Below are positions 3 through 54,124 of a DNA stretch of 64,000 nt, in pieces. A model generated the notes under the pieces. The model was given only the letters and a program-made list of their open reading frames with translations, ran no database searches and had not been told where the DNA came from. The number at the start of each line of letters is the position of its first letter. The stretch's first letter is position 1. A program made the translations under genes and the position numbers. Location: NCBI RefSeq assembly GCF_019039035.1, contig NZ_JAHNZT010000007.1, positions 1 to 64,000 of the forward strand, given 5' to 3'. The DNA comes from Citreicoccus inhibens. GTDB taxonomy: Bacteria > Myxococcota > Myxococcia > Myxococcales > Myxococcaceae.

Positions 3-1007
3 ACCGCCGGCCCAGGCGTCGCACGGCCCGCGGCAGGTCCAGGCGTCGCGCCCGCCACCGGCCCCGGAGCGGCGCCCACCGCAGGCCCTGGCGCGCGCCC
101 CACTGCGGCACCAGGAACACCCCCCGGCGCCGCGCGCCCCGGAGTCGCGCCCGCCGCGGGCCCTGGTGCCGCGCGCCCCGCGGCAGGCCCCGGAGCAGCC
201 CCCGCCGCGGGCCCTGGTGCCGCTCGTCCAGGCACGCCCCCGAGCGCCCCCGCCCGCCCCGCCCCGCCCGGGGTCACCAATCCCAGCGCGGCGGCACCCG
301 CCCCGGCGGCGGCAGCGGGCCCAGGCGCCGAGGAGATCCCCGCGCTGCGCCAGCTCGCCACGGCGATGAAGCAGCAGAACCACTTCCAGCGGCTCGGGCT
401 GTCCGAACAGACCGAAGCGGGCCCGGTGAAGCTGGCGTACTTCCGGCTCGCCAAGCAGTACCACCCGGACACCCTGCCGCAGGGCGCGCCGCCCGAGTTG
501 GAGAAGCTCAAGGCCGAAATCTTCGCGTACATCGGCGACGCCTACCGGACCCTCACGGACGACAAGAGCCGCGCCAACTACCTCGAGGAGCTCAAGAGCG
601 GCGGCGCCGGCAACGAGGTGGATGTGCAGTCCATCCTCATGGCCGAGGAGCTCTTCCAGAAGTCCTGCATCCTCGTAAAGGCCCGTAAGTTCCCCGAGGC
701 CGTGAAGATGCTGGACGAGGCCATCAAGCTCAACGCCGAGGAGGCCGAGTTCTACGCGTGGCGTGGCTATGCCCGCTTCTTCACCGCGGCGGACAAGAAG
801 GCCGCCCAGCCCGAGGCCTTCCGGGAAATCCAGAACGCCATCAAGCGCAATGAGCGGTGCGCCCCCGCCCACTACTTCCTGGGCGTCATCGCCAAGCTCT
901 GCGGGGACGCCACGAGTGCCCTCAAGCACTTCAAGCGAACGGTCGAGCTGCAGCCCGACCACATCGACGCGATGCGGGAGATCCGCATGGCGACCCAAAA
1001 GAAGTAG
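3..1007 (+). CDS. J-domain/TPR protein, 5' end outside window
   Basis: The frame is open from the first complete codon (position 3), so the real start lies to the left; the ATG at 366 is internal. The first ~110 visible residues are a Pro/Gly/Ala linker built from PGAA/PGVA-type repeats. From about 366 follows a J domain (FQRLGL, then YHPDT with the Hsp70-activating HPD at about 462-470, then [10 protein letters not shown]) and a TPR-like helical region to the end ([29 protein letters not shown]). J proteins stimulate DnaK ATPase; the client is unknown. The lack of a Gly/Phe region or zinc finger and the long N-terminal extension make it a specialised J protein, not DnaJ. yhbY follows 66 bp downstream. 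Confidence 0.8.
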
Positions 1008-47395: not shown

Positions 47396-47451
47396 GGTAG
47401 GTGTTTATTTCCATGGCTAGTGGAACGATGCAATCCGAGGGGAGTACGGCG

Positions 47452-48033
47452 ATGACGGACCAGCTCTACACGACGCACGACATCAGTCGTTTGCTTCAGG
47501 TGGACCCGTCGACGGTGAGCAAGTGGATCGATCGGGGCATCCTGATGGCCTTCCGCACGCCGGGCGGTCACCGGCGCGTGCGCTCGGCGGACCTGCGCAC
47601 GTTCCTCATCACCCACCAGATGCCGGTGCCGGAGGAGTTGGGTAGTGGCACCGTTCGGCTCCTGGTGGTGGACGATGAGCGGCAGGTGCTGGACGCCATC
47701 AAGCGCGCGTTCAAGCCCTACGCCAACCAGGTCGAGCTGCAGACGACGACGAGCGGCGTGGAGGCCCTGCTGCTCGTGTCCGAGCAGAAGCCGCATGGGA
47801 TGATCATCGACCTGAACATGCCGGACATTGACGGCCTGGAAGTCTGCCGCCGCATCCGCGCCCGCAAGCAGATGGAGGGCGTGCGGCTCATCACCATGAC
47901 GAGCGCGCACTCGCCGGACGTCGTGGAGGCCTCGAAGCAGGCCGGCGCGGTGGCGTGTCTGGCCAAGCCGGTGGACGTGGCCCAGGTGCTCGAGCTGTTC
48001 CGGGTGCCGCTTGCGCTCAACGTCCGCAAGTAA
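47452..48033 (+). CDS. MerR/excisionase-type HTH fused to a receiver domain
   Basis: 193 residues from ATG at 47452, chosen for GGGGAG 7 nt upstream (other ATGs at 47413 and 47428 lack one). Residues ~4-45 form a winged HTH of the MerR/excisionase type (YTTHDISRLLQVDPSTVSKWIDRGILMAFRTPGGHRRV). Residues ~70-190 are a receiver with acidic pair VVDDE, phospho-acceptor Asp in GMIIDLNMPDIDG, Thr/Ser switch ITMTSAHS and Lys in LAKPVD. The domain order is reversed from usual response regulators. No kinase is adjacent. It presumably binds DNA in a phosphorylation-dependent way. Confidence 0.88.
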   Translation: MTDQLYTTHDISRLLQVDPSTVSKWIDRGILMAFRTPGGHRRVRSADLRTFLITHQMPVPEELGSGTVRLLVVDDERQVLDAIKRAFKPYANQVELQTTTSGVEALLLVSEQKPHGMIIDLNMPDIDGLEVCRRIRARKQMEGVRLITMTSAHSPDVVEASKQAGAVACLAKPVDVAQVLELFRVPLALNVRK

Positions 48034-49054: not shown

Positions 49055-49897
49055 ATGGCGCCTCCTTCCCGCAATCGCATTGGTGACATCCTCGTCAAGG
49101 CTCGCGTCATCGATGAGCTTCAGCTCCGCAGCGCGCTGGCATCCTTGGACCAGTGGGGCGGGCGGCTGTCGCGCACCATCGCGGACCTCGGCCTCGCCAC
49201 GGAGGACGTCATCATCGACGCCATCTGTCAGGGCCTCGGCATGCAGCGGGTGAGCTTGGGGAACCTCACCAAGGACGCCGGCGCGCTGGCACGCGTGGAC
49301 ATCTCCCTGGCGGAGCAGAAGGGTGTCTTCCCGGTCTCCCTGAAGGACAACGGCAAGACGCTGGTGCTCGCGATGTCGGACCCCTCGGACCTGGCCACGT
49401 TGGATCAGGTGGCCGCGCGTGCCCGTGCGCGCATCGTCCCCATGGTGGCCGGCGACCGTGAAATCGAGACCGCCATCCTGCGCCACTACCGCAACCAGGA
49501 GCCCTCGGTCAGCACGCGCTTCAATCCCACGCGGCGCAAGGACGCCGACACCACGACCAGTGACGAGGATGAGTTCAAGGTCGTGGACATGAGCGGCAAC
49601 ACCGTCGTCAAGCGCATCGCGGACATCACGCCCCCCGCGGCGTCAGCGAGCGCGCCTCGGGCCTCGGCTCCCACGGAGAAGGCCGCGCCCGCCGGCTCCA
49701 GCGCGGCGGACATCCTGGATGAGATTCTCGCGGGGGGCGCGCCCGCCAACGAGTGGACGGAGGAGAACCTGCAGCGCCTCCAGACGGTGCAGCAGAACCA
49801 GGAGAAGAGCTCCAAGATTCTCCGCGCGCTGCTGGAGCTGCTCATCGAGAAGGGCCAGCTCCAGCAGCGGGAGCTGGCCACGCGCATGCGGCTGTAG
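49055..49897 (+). CDS. MshEN-domain (GspE/PilB N-terminal type) protein
   Basis: 280 residues. The N-terminal ~145 residues match the MshEN fold: RIGDILVKARVIDELQLRSALASLDQWGGRLSRTIADLGLATEDVIIDAICQGLGMQRVSL, then VFPVSLKDNGKTLVLAMSDPSDLATLDQVAARARARIVPMVAGDREIETAI. This domain binds c-di-GMP in MshE-like ATPases and forms the N-terminus of type IV pilus ATPases, but no ATPase is attached here. A Ser/Ala/Pro linker follows and a helical end (NLQRLQTVQQNQEKSSKILRALLELLIEKGQL) is probably coiled-coil. It may be a stand-alone sensor or adaptor for a secretion or motility machine. Confidence 0.8.
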   Translation: MAPPSRNRIGDILVKARVIDELQLRSALASLDQWGGRLSRTIADLGLATEDVIIDAICQGLGMQRVSLGNLTKDAGALARVDISLAEQKGVFPVSLKDNGKTLVLAMSDPSDLATLDQVAARARARIVPMVAGDREIETAILRHYRNQEPSVSTRFNPTRRKDADTTTSDEDEFKVVDMSGNTVVKRIADITPPAASASAPRASAPTEKAAPAGSSAADILDEILAGGAPANEWTEENLQRLQTVQQNQEKSSKILRALLELLIEKGQLQQRELATRMRL

Positions 49898-49906
49898 CCG
49901 CGCGCC

Positions 49907-51103
49907 TCAGCCCACTTCGCGCAGCTCGCGCGCGGTGAGCCCGAGCAGATACAGGATGGAGTCGAGTCCACCCGCGGAGATGGAAGTGTCCGCGGCCTCG
50001 CGCAGCCGGGGCTTGGCGCGAAACGCGATGCCCAGCCCCGCCCGCTCCAGCATCCGCAAGTCATTGGCGCCGTCGCCCACGGCGATGACCTGCTCCAGCA
50101 GGATGCCCTCCTGGCGCGCCAGCGTCTCCAGCAGCTCCGCCTTGCGCTGAGCGTTGACGATGGGCCCGAGCGTGCGCCCGGTGAGCTTGCCCTCGCGCTC
50201 CTCCAGCACGTTCGAATAGGCGAAGTCGATTCCCAGCCGCGCGCGCAGCGCCTCGGCCGCCACGGAGAAGCCGCCACTGATGACGGCGGTGCGATACCCC
50301 AGGCGCTTGAGGACGCGGGTCAGCGTCTCGGCGCCTTCGGTGAGGGGAAGATTCGCGGCAAGCTCGTGGAGCACCGCCGAGTCGAGCCCCGCGAGCATCG
50401 CCACGCGCTGCCGCAGCGACTCGTCGTAGTCGAGTTCGCCGTGCATGGCGCGCTCGGTGATGGCGGCCACCTGGCTGTGGACACCATGCGCGCGTGCCAG
50501 CTCGTCGATGACCTCGATGCGGATGAGCGTGGAATCCATGTCCATCACCACCATCCGCTTGGCGCGCCGGTACAGGCTCTCGCGCTGCAAGGCCACATCG
50601 AAGGAGGTGCTGCGCATGGACAACGCGAGGAGCGCGCGCTTGAGCGCCTCGGGCTCGCGCTCGCGCGGCAGCGCGATGTGGAACTCCACCGAGCCGAGCT
50701 GCGCGTCACTCAAGCGCACCACTCGGTCCAGCCGGGCCCCCTGCCCCGCCAGCTCCGTGGTCAGCGCGTGCACCTCGGGCGCGCCCAGCGCACGGCCCAC
50801 CGCGGTGACGACATAGCGAGCAGGGCCGTCCTCGGCCCCCACCGCGCGCGGGGGCTCCGCCACCTGGAAGTCCAGCTCGGCGCCCAGCTCCCGCGCCGCG
50901 AGCAGCAGCTCCTTCAGCGCGTCGCGCGCCTCGGGCAGGCGGATGAGCAGGCAGAGGGTCAGCCGCCCCTGCACCACCACCTGCTCCAGGTCGAGCAGCT
51001 CCGCGCCCGTCTCGGCGAGGATGCCCGTGAGCCGGGCGGTGATGCTGGGATGGTCCTTCCCGGTGACGGTGACGAGGACGCAGTCGGACGCGCGCGAGGT
51101 CAT
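49907..51103 (-). CDS. serB: Phosphoserine phosphatase with N-terminal ACT domains
   Basis: 398 residues; last step of serine synthesis. N-terminal ~170 residues carry ACT-type regulatory repeats (CVLVTVTGKDHPSITARLTGILAETGAELLDLEQVVV; RYVVTAVGRALGAPEVHALTTELAGQGARLDRVVRLS). The HAD catalytic part has VVMDMDSTLIRIEVIDELARAHG, AVISGGFSVAAEALRARLGIDFAYSN, NAQRKAELLETLA and VIAVGDGANDLRMLERAGLGIAFRAKPRL. This is the long SerB form, which is often serine-inhibited. Its stop lies 10 bp from the convergent MshEN gene. Confidence 0.95.
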   Translation of the reverse strand: MTSRASDCVLVTVTGKDHPSITARLTGILAETGAELLDLEQVVVQGRLTLCLLIRLPEARDALKELLLAARELGAELDFQVAEPPRAVGAEDGPARYVVTAVGRALGAPEVHALTTELAGQGARLDRVVRLSDAQLGSVEFHIALPREREPEALKRALLALSMRSTSFDVALQRESLYRRAKRMVVMDMDSTLIRIEVIDELARAHGVHSQVAAITERAMHGELDYDESLRQRVAMLAGLDSAVLHELAANLPLTEGAETLTRVLKRLGYRTAVISGGFSVAAEALRARLGIDFAYSNVLEEREGKLTGRTLGPIVNAQRKAELLETLARQEGILLEQVIAVGDGANDLRMLERAGLGIAFRAKPRLREAADTSISAGGLDSILYLLGLTARELREVG

Positions 51104-51169
51104 GGCTGCGCGCCAGTCTGACAGTCCCCTTCGCGTCGGGCGAGCCTCGCGTTCGGGCCCGCCCGCTCG

Positions 51170-52747
51170 CTACTCCTTCGGGAGATCCGAGGAGAGGATG
51201 AGATCGCCGCGGCTCAGGAAGTCGCGATCCGGGAAGGCCTTGTAGAAGTCCTCCAGCATCGCGTCCACGTCCGGATAACGCTGCTCGCGCTTGTCCTGCG
51301 TGGCCTTGTCGAAGAGCTGATCCAACCCGCTCGGGGCCTCGGGGTTCACCTCCGACGGCAGCGGCGAGCGCCGGCCCGGAATCTGTCCGGTGAGCATCTC
51401 GTACAGCAGGATGCCCAGGCCGTAGACGTCCGCGGCGGCGCCCGGCTCCTTGCCCACCCGGTTGATCAACTCAGGCGCCATGTAGACCATGCCGCCCGTG
51501 CCCACGAAGACCTGCGGCATGCCCTTGGTGGCATCCACCTCCACCACGCGGCCCAGGCCGAAGTCCGCCAGCTTCGCGTTGCCGGCCGCGTCGAACAGGA
51601 CGTTCTCGGGCTTGAGGTTGTGGTGCGTGAGGCCCGAGGCATGCGCGGCGCGCAGCCCGTAGGCGAGCTGGAGGAACGCTCTCAGGGCCAGCGGCACCTC
51701 GATGCCCTTGCCCCCGCCCGCGTCGAGCTTCTCCTTGAGGCTGCCGCGCATCAGCTCCACGACGAAGTAGGGGCGAGCCACCTCGACGTTCTGGTCCATG
51801 ATCTGCACCACGCCCGGGTGGCGCACCTGCGCCTGCGCGCACAGCTCCTTCTTCAGACGCTTGAGCACCTCGCCGCGCTGCAAGAAGGAGAAGTACCCGA
51901 AGATGTCCTTCAGCTCCTTGATGCAGATGTCCAGGCCCAGGGCGTTGAAGCGGCCCTTGAACACGGTGCCCAGCGGGCCCGTGCCGATGGGATCGAACTT
52001 CTGGTAGCGGTCCAGCTCGGCGCCCTTCGGCGCGGCGGAGAGGGAGGCCGAGGCAACGGGAGTGGGCGCGGCGGGAGGAGGGACCATCGGGGAGGGGGCG
52101 GCAACAGGCGAGGGAGGAGCGACCTGGGTGGGCGGCGCCGCGACCGGCGCGGGGGGAACGTCACGGCGCGGCTCGGGCGGCGGCGTCTCGACCCGGGCCG
52201 AGGGAATCGCGGCCGACGGCGCGACGATGACGGACGGCGTCGAGGCGGCGGGCGGTGGAACCAGCTCGAGCGCCGGCATGGCGACCCGCGCGGTGCGCGG
52301 CGGCGGAATGGGCGGCGGTGCAGAGGAGGACGGAGCTCCCGTCGGCGGCGCCTCGACCTCGGTCTCGTCGAGCAGCAGCTCCGGCGGAGGCGGGGGGAGC
52401 ATCAGCTCCTCGCCCTGCGCGATGGGCGGCTGTTCCTCACCACCGTGAAGCTGTTCCTCGAAGTACTCGTCCACTTCCAGCGCGAAGCGCTCCTGGAAGT
52501 CGCCACCCACCACCCGCTCGCCCTGATCGGTGAGCTTGAGCTGGGCCTCGCGGTCCATGGCGATGTAGTGGAACTTGCGCAGGAAGAAGAAGTAGTTGTC
52601 GAACTCCAGCGAGACGGACGGTTCGAGCGCGGCCTTGACGTCAGCCAGCTTGTTCGAGCGTCCCAGGCGGCCGTTCTCCCGCAGGTTCTGCAGGATGAAC
52701 AGCGCCTCGCCACTGACGGTGTCACGGTTGATGGCGGGCTTCGTCAT
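51170..52747 (-). CDS. Predicted Ser/Thr pseudokinase with N-terminal winged-helix-like domain
   Basis: 525 residues from ATG at 52747. Residues ~8-85 (SGEALFILQNLRENGRLGRSNKLADVK; KLTDQGERVVGGDF) look like a winged helix. A Pro/Ala/Val-rich linker (~110-250) follows, then a Hanks-type kinase fold: glycine loop IGTGPLGTVFKG, Lys in DICIKELKD, DFG in LADFGLG, APE in YMAPELI. The catalytic loop reads HHNLKPEN: the essential Asp of HRD is Asn (codon AAC, checked on the DNA). It is therefore probably catalytically dead or very weak, and acts as a scaffold or allosteric partner. A receiver protein gene lies upstream. Confidence 0.85.
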   Translation of the reverse strand: MTKPAINRDTVSGEALFILQNLRENGRLGRSNKLADVKAALEPSVSLEFDNYFFFLRKFHYIAMDREAQLKLTDQGERVVGGDFQERFALEVDEYFEEQLHGGEEQPPIAQGEELMLPPPPPELLLDETEVEAPPTGAPSSSAPPPIPPPRTARVAMPALELVPPPAASTPSVIVAPSAAIPSARVETPPPEPRRDVPPAPVAAPPTQVAPPSPVAAPSPMVPPPAAPTPVASASLSAAPKGAELDRYQKFDPIGTGPLGTVFKGRFNALGLDICIKELKDIFGYFSFLQRGEVLKRLKKELCAQAQVRHPGVVQIMDQNVEVARPYFVVELMRGSLKEKLDAGGGKGIEVPLALRAFLQLAYGLRAAHASGLTHHNLKPENVLFDAAGNAKLADFGLGRVVEVDATKGMPQVFVGTGGMVYMAPELINRVGKEPGAAADVYGLGILLYEMLTGQIPGRRSPLPSEVNPEAPSGLDQLFDKATQDKREQRYPDVDAMLEDFYKAFPDRDFLSRGDLILSSDLPKE

Positions 52748-52830
52748 GTCGGGTGCGCGAACTCTACGCCGCACCGCTGCCATGGCTCAACGCTCGGTGC
52801 GGAAAAATACTCCGCGCGCGAAAACCGCCC

Positions 52831-53352
52831 TCACTTGATGCGCAGCAGCTGCTTCACCGTCTCCAGGACTTCCACGAAGCGCACGGGCTTGCGCAGGTAG
52901 ATGTCCACCCCGAGTTGGATGGCGCGCTCCTGCGCCTCCTTGCCCCCGGCGGAGATGGCGATGATCGGGATGCCGCGGAGCGCCTCCTCCTCGCGGATGC
53001 GCTCCACCAGGGCGAAGCCGTCCATCACCGGCATGTAGAGGTCCGTCATCACCAGGCTGAAGCGCCCCTCGCGCAGCATCAGGAGCGCGTGGTGCCCGTC
53101 CGGCGCGAAGTGGACCTCCAACGGGACCTTCCCGTGCAGATCGTTGCTCGCGAGCTTCTTGAGGACGTAGCTGTACATCTCGATGATGTGCGGGTTGTCC
53201 TCGACGATGAGCACACGGTAGCCGTCAGGCTCGGTGTGGGACGCGGTGCTGTCAGGTCCTGCCGCACTCAAGATGTCACCCAGTCGCCGCCAATCCTTCG
53301 CGTACGCCCCGCGGACGCCGACGTCCCCTCGGCATTCGGGGCCACCGGCCAC
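52831..53352 (-). CDS. Stand-alone response-regulator receiver protein
   Basis: Up to 173 residues. The receiver occupies ~44-170: YRVLIVEDNPHIIEMYSYVLKKL, phospho-acceptor Asp in LVMTDLYMPVMDGFALVERI, switch IIAISAGGKEAQERA, Lys in YLRKPVRFVEVLE. There is no output domain. The start is uncertain: GTG at 53352 has no good RBS and the first 40 residues look unstructured; a TTG at 53271 is possible. It runs the same way as the kinase-like gene, 83 bp downstream, so they may be cotranscribed. Confidence 0.8.
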   Translation of the reverse strand: MAGGPECRGDVGVRGAYAKDWRRLGDILSAAGPDSTASHTEPDGYRVLIVEDNPHIIEMYSYVLKKLASNDLHGKVPLEVHFAPDGHHALLMLREGRFSLVMTDLYMPVMDGFALVERIREEEALRGIPIIAISAGGKEAQERAIQLGVDIYLRKPVRFVEVLETVKQLLRIK

Positions 53353-53596
53353 ACCTCGGCCACGGTTCCGCTGACTTCTACCGGATCCAGGGGCCCCGGG
53401 AAAGAAAGTGCCAGCGAACCTCTTCCCCCGCCCCAGGTCCGCCTGCTCGCTCGCCGCGGGACACGTCCACCCGCCCGCCGCCCGGCCGGGACCCAGGCCC
53501 GCCTGCGCCGGCGCCCACGGGCTCAGCGCATAACAAGGGGTTGAAATCGCTCGGCAATTTGCTGATGGCGGCCCAGTCTACAGCCAAGGGTTTATG

Positions 53597-53626
53597 TTGA
53601 CAACGCGGCCATCGGGGCCATACGTA
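53597..53626 (+). promoter_or_regulatory. Candidate promoter of the nuo operon
   Basis: TTGACA (53597-53602) is a perfect -35; 18 bp later TACGTA (53621-53626) could be the -10. It is embedded in a near-palindrome, CGGGGC (53613-53618) and GCCCCG (53628-53633). Transcription would begin within a few bases of the nuoE ATG (53636), which has no Shine-Dalgarno, so the message may be leaderless. Confidence 0.4.
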
Positions 53627-53635
53627 CGCCCCGCC

Positions 53636-54124
53636 ATGGCGGAGCCCCTGTTCACTCCTGAAGAGCAGAAGAAGTTCGACGCGGGGATCGCGGAGATCCT
53701 TTCGCACTATCCCCCCGAGCGCAAAAGCGCTGGCATGTTGCCCGCGCTGCGCCTGCTTCAGGAGCTCAAGGGTTGGCTCCCGCAGGACGGTTTGCGTCTG
53801 GTGGCGAAGCAGCTGGAGGTCACGCCGGAGCGCGCCTACGAGGTCGCCAGCTTCTACGTGATGTACCACCTGAAGAAGCCGGGCAAGTACGTCGTCGACG
53901 TCTGCACCAACCTCTCCTGCTCCCTCTGGGGCGCAGAGAAGATGCTCGCGTACCTCGAGGACAAGCTCGGGCTCAAGGCGGGCGAGGCCAACGAGAAGTT
54001 CACCTTGCGCGAGACCGAGTGCCTCGCCTCGTGTGGCACGGCGCCGTGCCTGCAGATCAATGAGGATCACCACGAGAACCTGACCAAGGCGAAGCTGGAC
54101 GCCATCCTGGCGAAGCTCCCCTGA
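53636..54124 (+). CDS. nuoE: NADH-quinone oxidoreductase subunit E
   Basis: 162 residues from ATG at 53636, matching the usual NuoE start; an in-frame ATG at 53594 would add 14 residues. It carries the N1a [2Fe-2S] cluster in the peripheral arm of complex I. Ligands: CTNLSC and ECLASC. Core: YPPERKSAGMLPALRLLQELKGWLPQDGLRLVAKQLEV and YEVASFYVMYHLKKPGKYVVDVCTN. It heads the nuoEF-JKLMN cluster, 35 bp before nuoF. Confidence 0.94.
   Translation: MAEPLFTPEEQKKFDAGIAEILSHYPPERKSAGMLPALRLLQELKGWLPQDGLRLVAKQLEVTPERAYEVASFYVMYHLKKPGKYVVDVCTNLSCSLWGAEKMLAYLEDKLGLKAGEANEKFTLRETECLASCGTAPCLQINEDHHENLTKAKLDAILAKLP

Follow-up and report, generated by a model that had tools for sequence, protein, structure and literature searches.

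The window analyzed here is a 64,000-nucleotide stretch of the Citreicoccus inhibens genome (contig NZ_JAHNZT010000007.1, positions 1 to 64,000). Its minus strand encodes a protein in which three parts follow one another: an N-terminal winged helix; a Pro/Ala-rich linker, whose length and sequence differ between aligned relatives; and a kinase-like domain (Table 1). A gap of 83 bases separates this gene from a receiver-domain gene upstream in the same orientation, and a phosphoserine phosphatase is encoded downstream. A search of 49800-53650 for terminator-like sites gave none, a result that would fit an operon.

Table 1. Features of the pseudokinase gene and its surroundings (positions are those of the window)
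Feature	Residues	Position	Strand	Basis or remark
HTH_17/MerR-type helix-turn-helix before receiver domain		47401-48033	+	
Stand-alone MshEN-domain protein		49055-49897	+	Pfam E=3.5e-15
serB-type phosphoserine phosphatase (HAD + ACT domains)		49907..51103	-	downstream, same strand, 66 bases away
Winged-helix pseudokinase gene	525 aa	51170..52747	-	Citreicoccus inhibens window
Whole N-terminal domain	1-100	52448-52747	-	
Winged helix-turn-helix fold	10-82	52502..52720	-	AlphaFold2 model and DtxR structural match
Pro/Ala-rich linker	101-245 (~145 residues)	52013..52447	-	alignment of relatives
Kinase-like domain	246-507	51227..52012	-	Pfam PF00069 and alignment
Gly loop GTGPLG	255-260			present
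β3 (VAIK-type) Lys	277	51917..51919	-	invariant, 94/94
αC Glu	301			present in the 525-aa protein
Catalytic loop HHNLKPEN	375-382	51602..51625	-	Asn377 replaces catalytic Asp
Codon AAC, base position	377	51617-51619	-	Asn
DFG motif	395-397	51557..51565	-	Asp invariant, 94/94
APE motif	424-426			present
Stand-alone receiver domain gene		52831..53289	-	Pfam Response_reg E=3.1e-19; start codon uncertain, alternative GTG at 53352

Kinase profiles are the sole Pfam matches within the 525 residues, and the Pkinase match (PF00069; E=1.4e-32, residues 248-462), together with the Gly loop, β3 Lys, DFG and APE motifs, places the protein in the Hanks-type kinase superfamily. A first-pass annotation had described a kinase homologue whose HRD Asp is changed to Asn while these motifs are kept, and inspection of the open reading frame confirms that description. 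A scan of named genomes yielded 29 loci, almost all of them in records titled Myxococcus, Corallococcus, Pyxidicoccus, Archangium or Myxococcaceae; all 21 that include the catalytic loop read HHN[LI]KPEN, and Asp occurs in none.

Wider searches gave 120 entries, each a locus and some of them sharing a genome; dropping identical kinase domains left 94 distinct ones. Five loci of the class-wide search stop short of the kinase part, at the end of their contig or flank. Among the 94, the catalytic base position holds Asn in 83, Gly in six, Ala in two, Ser in two, and Asp in one, the distant member L133, which was kept in every count. Residues Lys277, His375, Lys379, Asn382, Asp395 (the DFG Asp) and Asp440, by contrast, are each identical in 94/94. 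Close relatives dominate this set, so the counts were repeated with 24 representatives of less than 70% identity: the base is Asn in 14, Gly in six, Ser in two, Ala in one and Asp in one, and the same six residues are each present in 24/24. The loops read HHN or HQN in the window's family; HQN, HGN, HRN or HHN in other families of the order, with HGA in two genomes; and HGN, HQN, HAN, HGS, HGG, HRG, HTG or HLG, with HGD once, in other orders and classes. Two loci, L087 and L088, carry HGALKPEN and have nearly no linker between the winged helix and the kinase domain. Three family members (L089, L090 and L123) read DPG (two, in one genus) or DFS (one) in place of DFG, with the Asp kept. As a control, the best 60 of 86 other kinase matches in the same genome were aligned: the base is Asp in 58, Gly in one and Ala in one. 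Gaps at the β3 Lys column of this control alignment are alignment faults, and that column was not used. Two kinase homologues on other contigs of this genome, L180 (VVHRGLTLDN) and L192 (VIHGALTPGN), also have no catalytic Asp.

A pseudokinase is defined by motif as missing at least one of the β3 Lys, HRD Asp and DFG Asp. Here the HRD Asp is lost in 93 of 94 distinct domains and the HRD motif is the sole diverging one, so that the pseudokinase assignment made from the single gene gains strong support from the alignment of its relatives; the state itself is, by the same strongly supported reading, much older than one sequence could reveal. Asp in orthologues, which the first-pass annotation had named as evidence against its claim, was looked for and appeared in L133 alone. 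The claim of an intact nucleotide pocket is likewise supported by the invariance of the β3 Lys, loop Lys, loop Asn and DFG Asp, although ATP sensing would be just one possible use of such a pocket. Other parts of the active site are less constrained. The αC Glu is present in all 13 close relatives of the first alignment, in 76 of the 94 distinct domains, and in 9 of the 24 representatives; the residue three before the conserved P+1-loop Tyr is Thr in 4/94 and Ser in 10/94. Relaxation of the αC Glu and the loss, in most members, of the P+1 Thr suggest that catalytic and substrate geometry drifts while the nucleotide site does not.

The catalytic loop of JAK2 JH2 contains HGN. This pseudokinase and HER3 appear to be the nearest tested parallels: in the account available, both have likewise replaced the HRD Asp and kept the β3 Lys, loop Asn and DFG Asp. 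HER3, with Asn for the HRD Asp, is reported there to bind ATP with a Kd of ~1 uM and one Mg, and both proteins to bind ATP with a single cation and to show weak activity (PMC4718504). Both are animal proteins related to tyrosine kinases and have no winged helix, whereas the myxobacterial family has Gly, Ser and Ala at the base position as well.

Because HER3 and JAK2 JH2 are weakly active, a low kinase activity is conceivable here. The protein would then be a weak but real protein kinase, in which Asn slows transfer and a few regulatory sites, on the protein itself or on a bound partner, are phosphorylated. Such a kinase would make sense of the complete nucleotide site, of the αC Glu kept in near relatives and of the Asp in L133, and it has the precedent of JAK2 JH2 and HER3 as described (PMC4718504). 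Yet Gly, Ser or Ala occupies the base position in 10 of the 94 members, which argues against a chemical role for Asn, and the P+1 Thr is mostly lost. An active kinase is therefore judged unlikely from the alignments, and the weak kinase just outlined is improbable. The preferred reading, a pseudokinase, carries with it the expectation that the protein very probably performs no physiological protein phosphotransfer.

The N-terminal domain has no Pfam match up to E=1, and the best sequence match of the isolated winged helix in the PDB, at E 0.32, is not meaningful. A full-length AlphaFold2 model (pLDDT 39.6) was set aside. The model of the N-terminal domain, built from a 41-sequence alignment, has a mean pLDDT of 89.7, and VIA-align superposes it on DtxR 1g3y (Z 9.2, rmsd 2.2, 71 aligned) and on the DtxR-like 2h09 of Escherichia coli (Z 9.4, rmsd 2.9, 79 aligned), so it has the winged-helix fold of the DtxR and MarR regulators. 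Topoisomerase and MarR-type chains score close behind. Foldseek ranks DtxR-type regulators first among PDB entries, with E no better than 0.03 and nothing at E<=0.001. Since the DtxR, topoisomerase and MarR scores are all close, they point to a common fold and to no specific kinship.

The first-pass annotation had proposed a DNA-binding-like domain of winged-helix type fused to the kinase homologue. The fold is borne out by the model; DNA binding finds no support. Over residues 8-82 the net charge has a median of 0 (range -5 to +5, 84 members), and helix 3 is acidic, with Glu or Asp at position 48 in 75/84 and Asp at position 50 in 61/84. These values argue, though not decisively, against the basic recognition helix and wing through which DtxR/MarR-type regulators touch DNA. 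Neutral charge and an acidic helix 3 favor a protein-interaction module as the more likely function, and DNA binding is rather unlikely. The same features weigh on a further explanation, that the protein is an ATP-responsive transcription factor with a DNA-binding winged helix and a nucleotide-sensing pseudokinase domain. A modelled fold closest to DtxR and MarR regulators would suit such a factor; the neutral charge, the acidic helix 3 and the want of any Foldseek match at E<=0.001 would not, and this explanation too has a small chance of being right.

Is the family one already described? The text available of a 2025 review presents seven bacterial pseudokinase families (ActPs1, ActPs2, ActPs3, GLW, CP1, DYD and DLHK). 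In five of them every one of the three motifs has diverged, and in the remaining two those for binding ATP and metal have (PMC12599244), the reverse of the pattern in the myxobacterial family. As far as their motifs and domains are described there, the present signature matches none of the seven. ActPs2, also related to bacterial Ser/Thr kinases, likewise has Asn for the HRD Asp, but is described as carrying Arg at β3, long insertions, a deletion of DFG and often a transmembrane region at the C terminus (PMC12599244). The myxobacterial family instead has the β3 Lys in 94/94, the DFG Asp in 94/94, and as its extra domain the N-terminal winged helix; the ActPs2 combination of β3 Lys to Arg, DFG deletion and HRD Asp to Asn is not found in it. 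Nor are the features given for GLW (GLW replacing HRD, and no β3 Lys) or for CP1, whose linked COG3899 ATPase domain has no counterpart in a protein matched by kinase profiles only (PMC12599244).

In domain order the closest likeness is to Rio2, in which a winged helix also precedes a kinase-fold domain and which is thought, in the source as available, to be mainly an ATPase (PMC6501643). Rio2 is described as having a RIO fold, a retained HGD Asp and, in its winged helix, a positive charge and predicted RNA binding. The myxobacterial protein is Hanks-type, matching the Pkinase profile instead, with the Asp absent and the winged helix neutral. It may nonetheless work like Rio2, and a broader version of this idea holds that it is some other ATP-using enzyme on a kinase fold, whether for AMPylation (SelO-like), for glutamylation (SidJ-like) or as a Rio2-like ATPase switch. 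A fixed β3 Lys, loop Lys, loop Asn and DFG Asp beside a variable base is the pattern expected for use of ATP-Mg without a classical base; SelO and SidJ offer precedents (PMC12599244, in the text available), and the domain order is that of Rio2 (PMC6501643, likewise). Against this, the protein has no SelO or RIO profile match and Rio2, as described, retains its HxD Asp (PMC6501643), so that an enzyme of this kind seems a poor prospect beside a pseudokinase with non-catalytic output.

The fusion of winged helix and kinase occurs throughout the phylum. When whole genomes were searched for the winged helix by itself, 34/39 of the window's family and 25/59 of the order had it, and a profile of 41 winged-helix sequences found matches in 97/145 genomes of the class and 118/195 of the phylum, with one copy in each genome that has a match. 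Judged by the named relatives, this phylum is Myxococcota. Myxococcus xanthus carries the gene (locus L027, on a contig that ends inside it). The text consulted counts 11 pseudokinases among its 99 Ser/Thr kinases (PMC6791715, after Perez et al. 2008); the M. xanthus orthologue may be among those 11, and thus already listed as inactive. Several near-complete genomes of the same order (for example G048, G057 and G066) are without the gene, which is therefore dispensable in some lineages. Kinase remnants were sought in eight genomes without the winged helix: the four matches past 1e-50, in two genomes, are all canonical HRD kinases of another kind. One locus, L005, in a record titled Comamonas sp. 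KCTC 72670, is a myxobacterial locus with full synteny and is probably mislabelled. In L016 (6001-7481, from a record of Corallococcus terminator) the winged helix is in one frame and the kinase part in another, probably through an assembly fault, as many other contigs (L011-L015, L017-L019, L022-L029) end within the linker.

A tree (midpoint root, for drawing only) that samples the family by 57 of its 94 members and the paralogues by 16 of 60 joins the family in one clade with support 100/100. L133, the sole bearer of Asp, is nested in a group with Asn (L134), Gly (L137, L139) and Ser (L138). Either a reversion to Asp or several separate losses around L133 could explain this placement; the reversion would take fewer changes. 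In six pairs with the window gene, kinase-domain dN/dS is 0.03-0.26, which indicates purifying selection. Loss of the catalytic Asp taken alone might suggest gene decay or a sequencing error, an explanation with a negligible chance of being right: it is refuted by the 21/21 HHN[LI]KPEN loops, by the loss shared among 93/94 distinct domains, by these dN/dS values and by the single-copy spread over 118/195 phylum genomes.

The upstream receiver had been put forward as a cotranscribed partner in an atypical signalling complex. Within the window's family the linkage is perfect: a receiver lies directly upstream in 56/56 loci with upstream DNA (some from the same genome), and in the 46 distinct copies Glu30-Asp31, Asp83, Ser113 and Lys134 (numbered from 53289) are invariant. 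Loci L011-L015 and L017-L019 start inside the gene and fall outside the 56. Elsewhere the proposal fails, since the receiver is absent from the flanks of 10 loci from other families of the order and of 20 loci from other orders and classes (flanks of ~3 kb as a rule, with less than 1 kb upstream in L086 and L089). A universal partnership is accordingly rejected (0/10 and 0/20). Absence at these 30 loci means that the receiver cannot be the core of the mechanism, and it is at most a later partner; that it is a direct partner within the window's family is a tentative suggestion, somewhat more doubtful than not. Linkage of serB is confined to nearer relatives, and serB is absent from the flanks of the same 10 and 20 loci. 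SerB was therefore judged an incidental neighbor, and probably lies outside the mechanism.

These observations are best read as those of an ancient ATP-binding signalling part that is probably not a working kinase. More specifically, the protein is likely a cytosolic nucleotide-binding pseudokinase that serves as a non-catalytic switch or scaffold. There is good reason to expect its kinase-like domain to bind ATP-Mg, as HER3 and JAK2 JH2 do. The bound state would then set the conformation and the partners of the pseudokinase, and the output would be conformational rather than catalytic. The linker would tether to this domain a winged helix more likely to serve protein interaction than DNA binding. 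In the window's family the stand-alone receiver would be the likeliest partner, and the pseudokinase complex would read whether it is phosphorylated. The logic would resemble that of the Caulobacter histidine pseudokinase DivL, a dead kinase that, in the source as available, reads the state of the response regulator DivK (PMC4211667). DivL has the unrelated histidine kinase fold, and the receiver partnership here is suggested by gene linkage in one family. Several points run against the preferred switch or scaffold: the Asp in L133; the αC Glu in all 13 close relatives; the weak activity of HER3 and JAK2 JH2; the gene's absence from some lineages; and the restriction of the receiver linkage to one family.

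No description of a myxobacterial winged-helix pseudokinase family was found in the open literature searched, which is no proof that the family is unpublished. What appears new, as judged from sequence comparison, is the family itself, how deep it goes and how it is built, together with the sharp division between a conserved nucleotide site and a free base. Bacterial pseudokinases are mostly uncharacterized; here the two halves of an active site have been separated phylum-wide, the nucleotide-holding residues frozen and the catalytic base free. The purpose of ATP binding without catalysis thereby becomes directly testable in a single gene of the genetically tractable M. xanthus. A bolder and rather doubtful proposal is that the protein is a phylum-wide, single-copy core hub that reads ATP, that its nucleotide site has lacked a catalytic base ever since the ancestor of the phylum, and that one family recruited the receiver to it. 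If so, two-component and Hanks-type signalling would meet, in that family, without phosphotransfer by the kinase fold.

Clustering of the flanking open reading frames over the phylum revealed no neighbor that recurs beyond one family or order, barring the gene itself and shadow ORFs. The MshEN protein recurs as a neighbor in three families of the order (the loci from other families are L081, L083 and L086). MshEN domains bind cyclic di-GMP in secretion ATPases. Elsewhere in the window, the gene with a helix-turn-helix ahead of its receiver domain has a domain order unusual for a response regulator.
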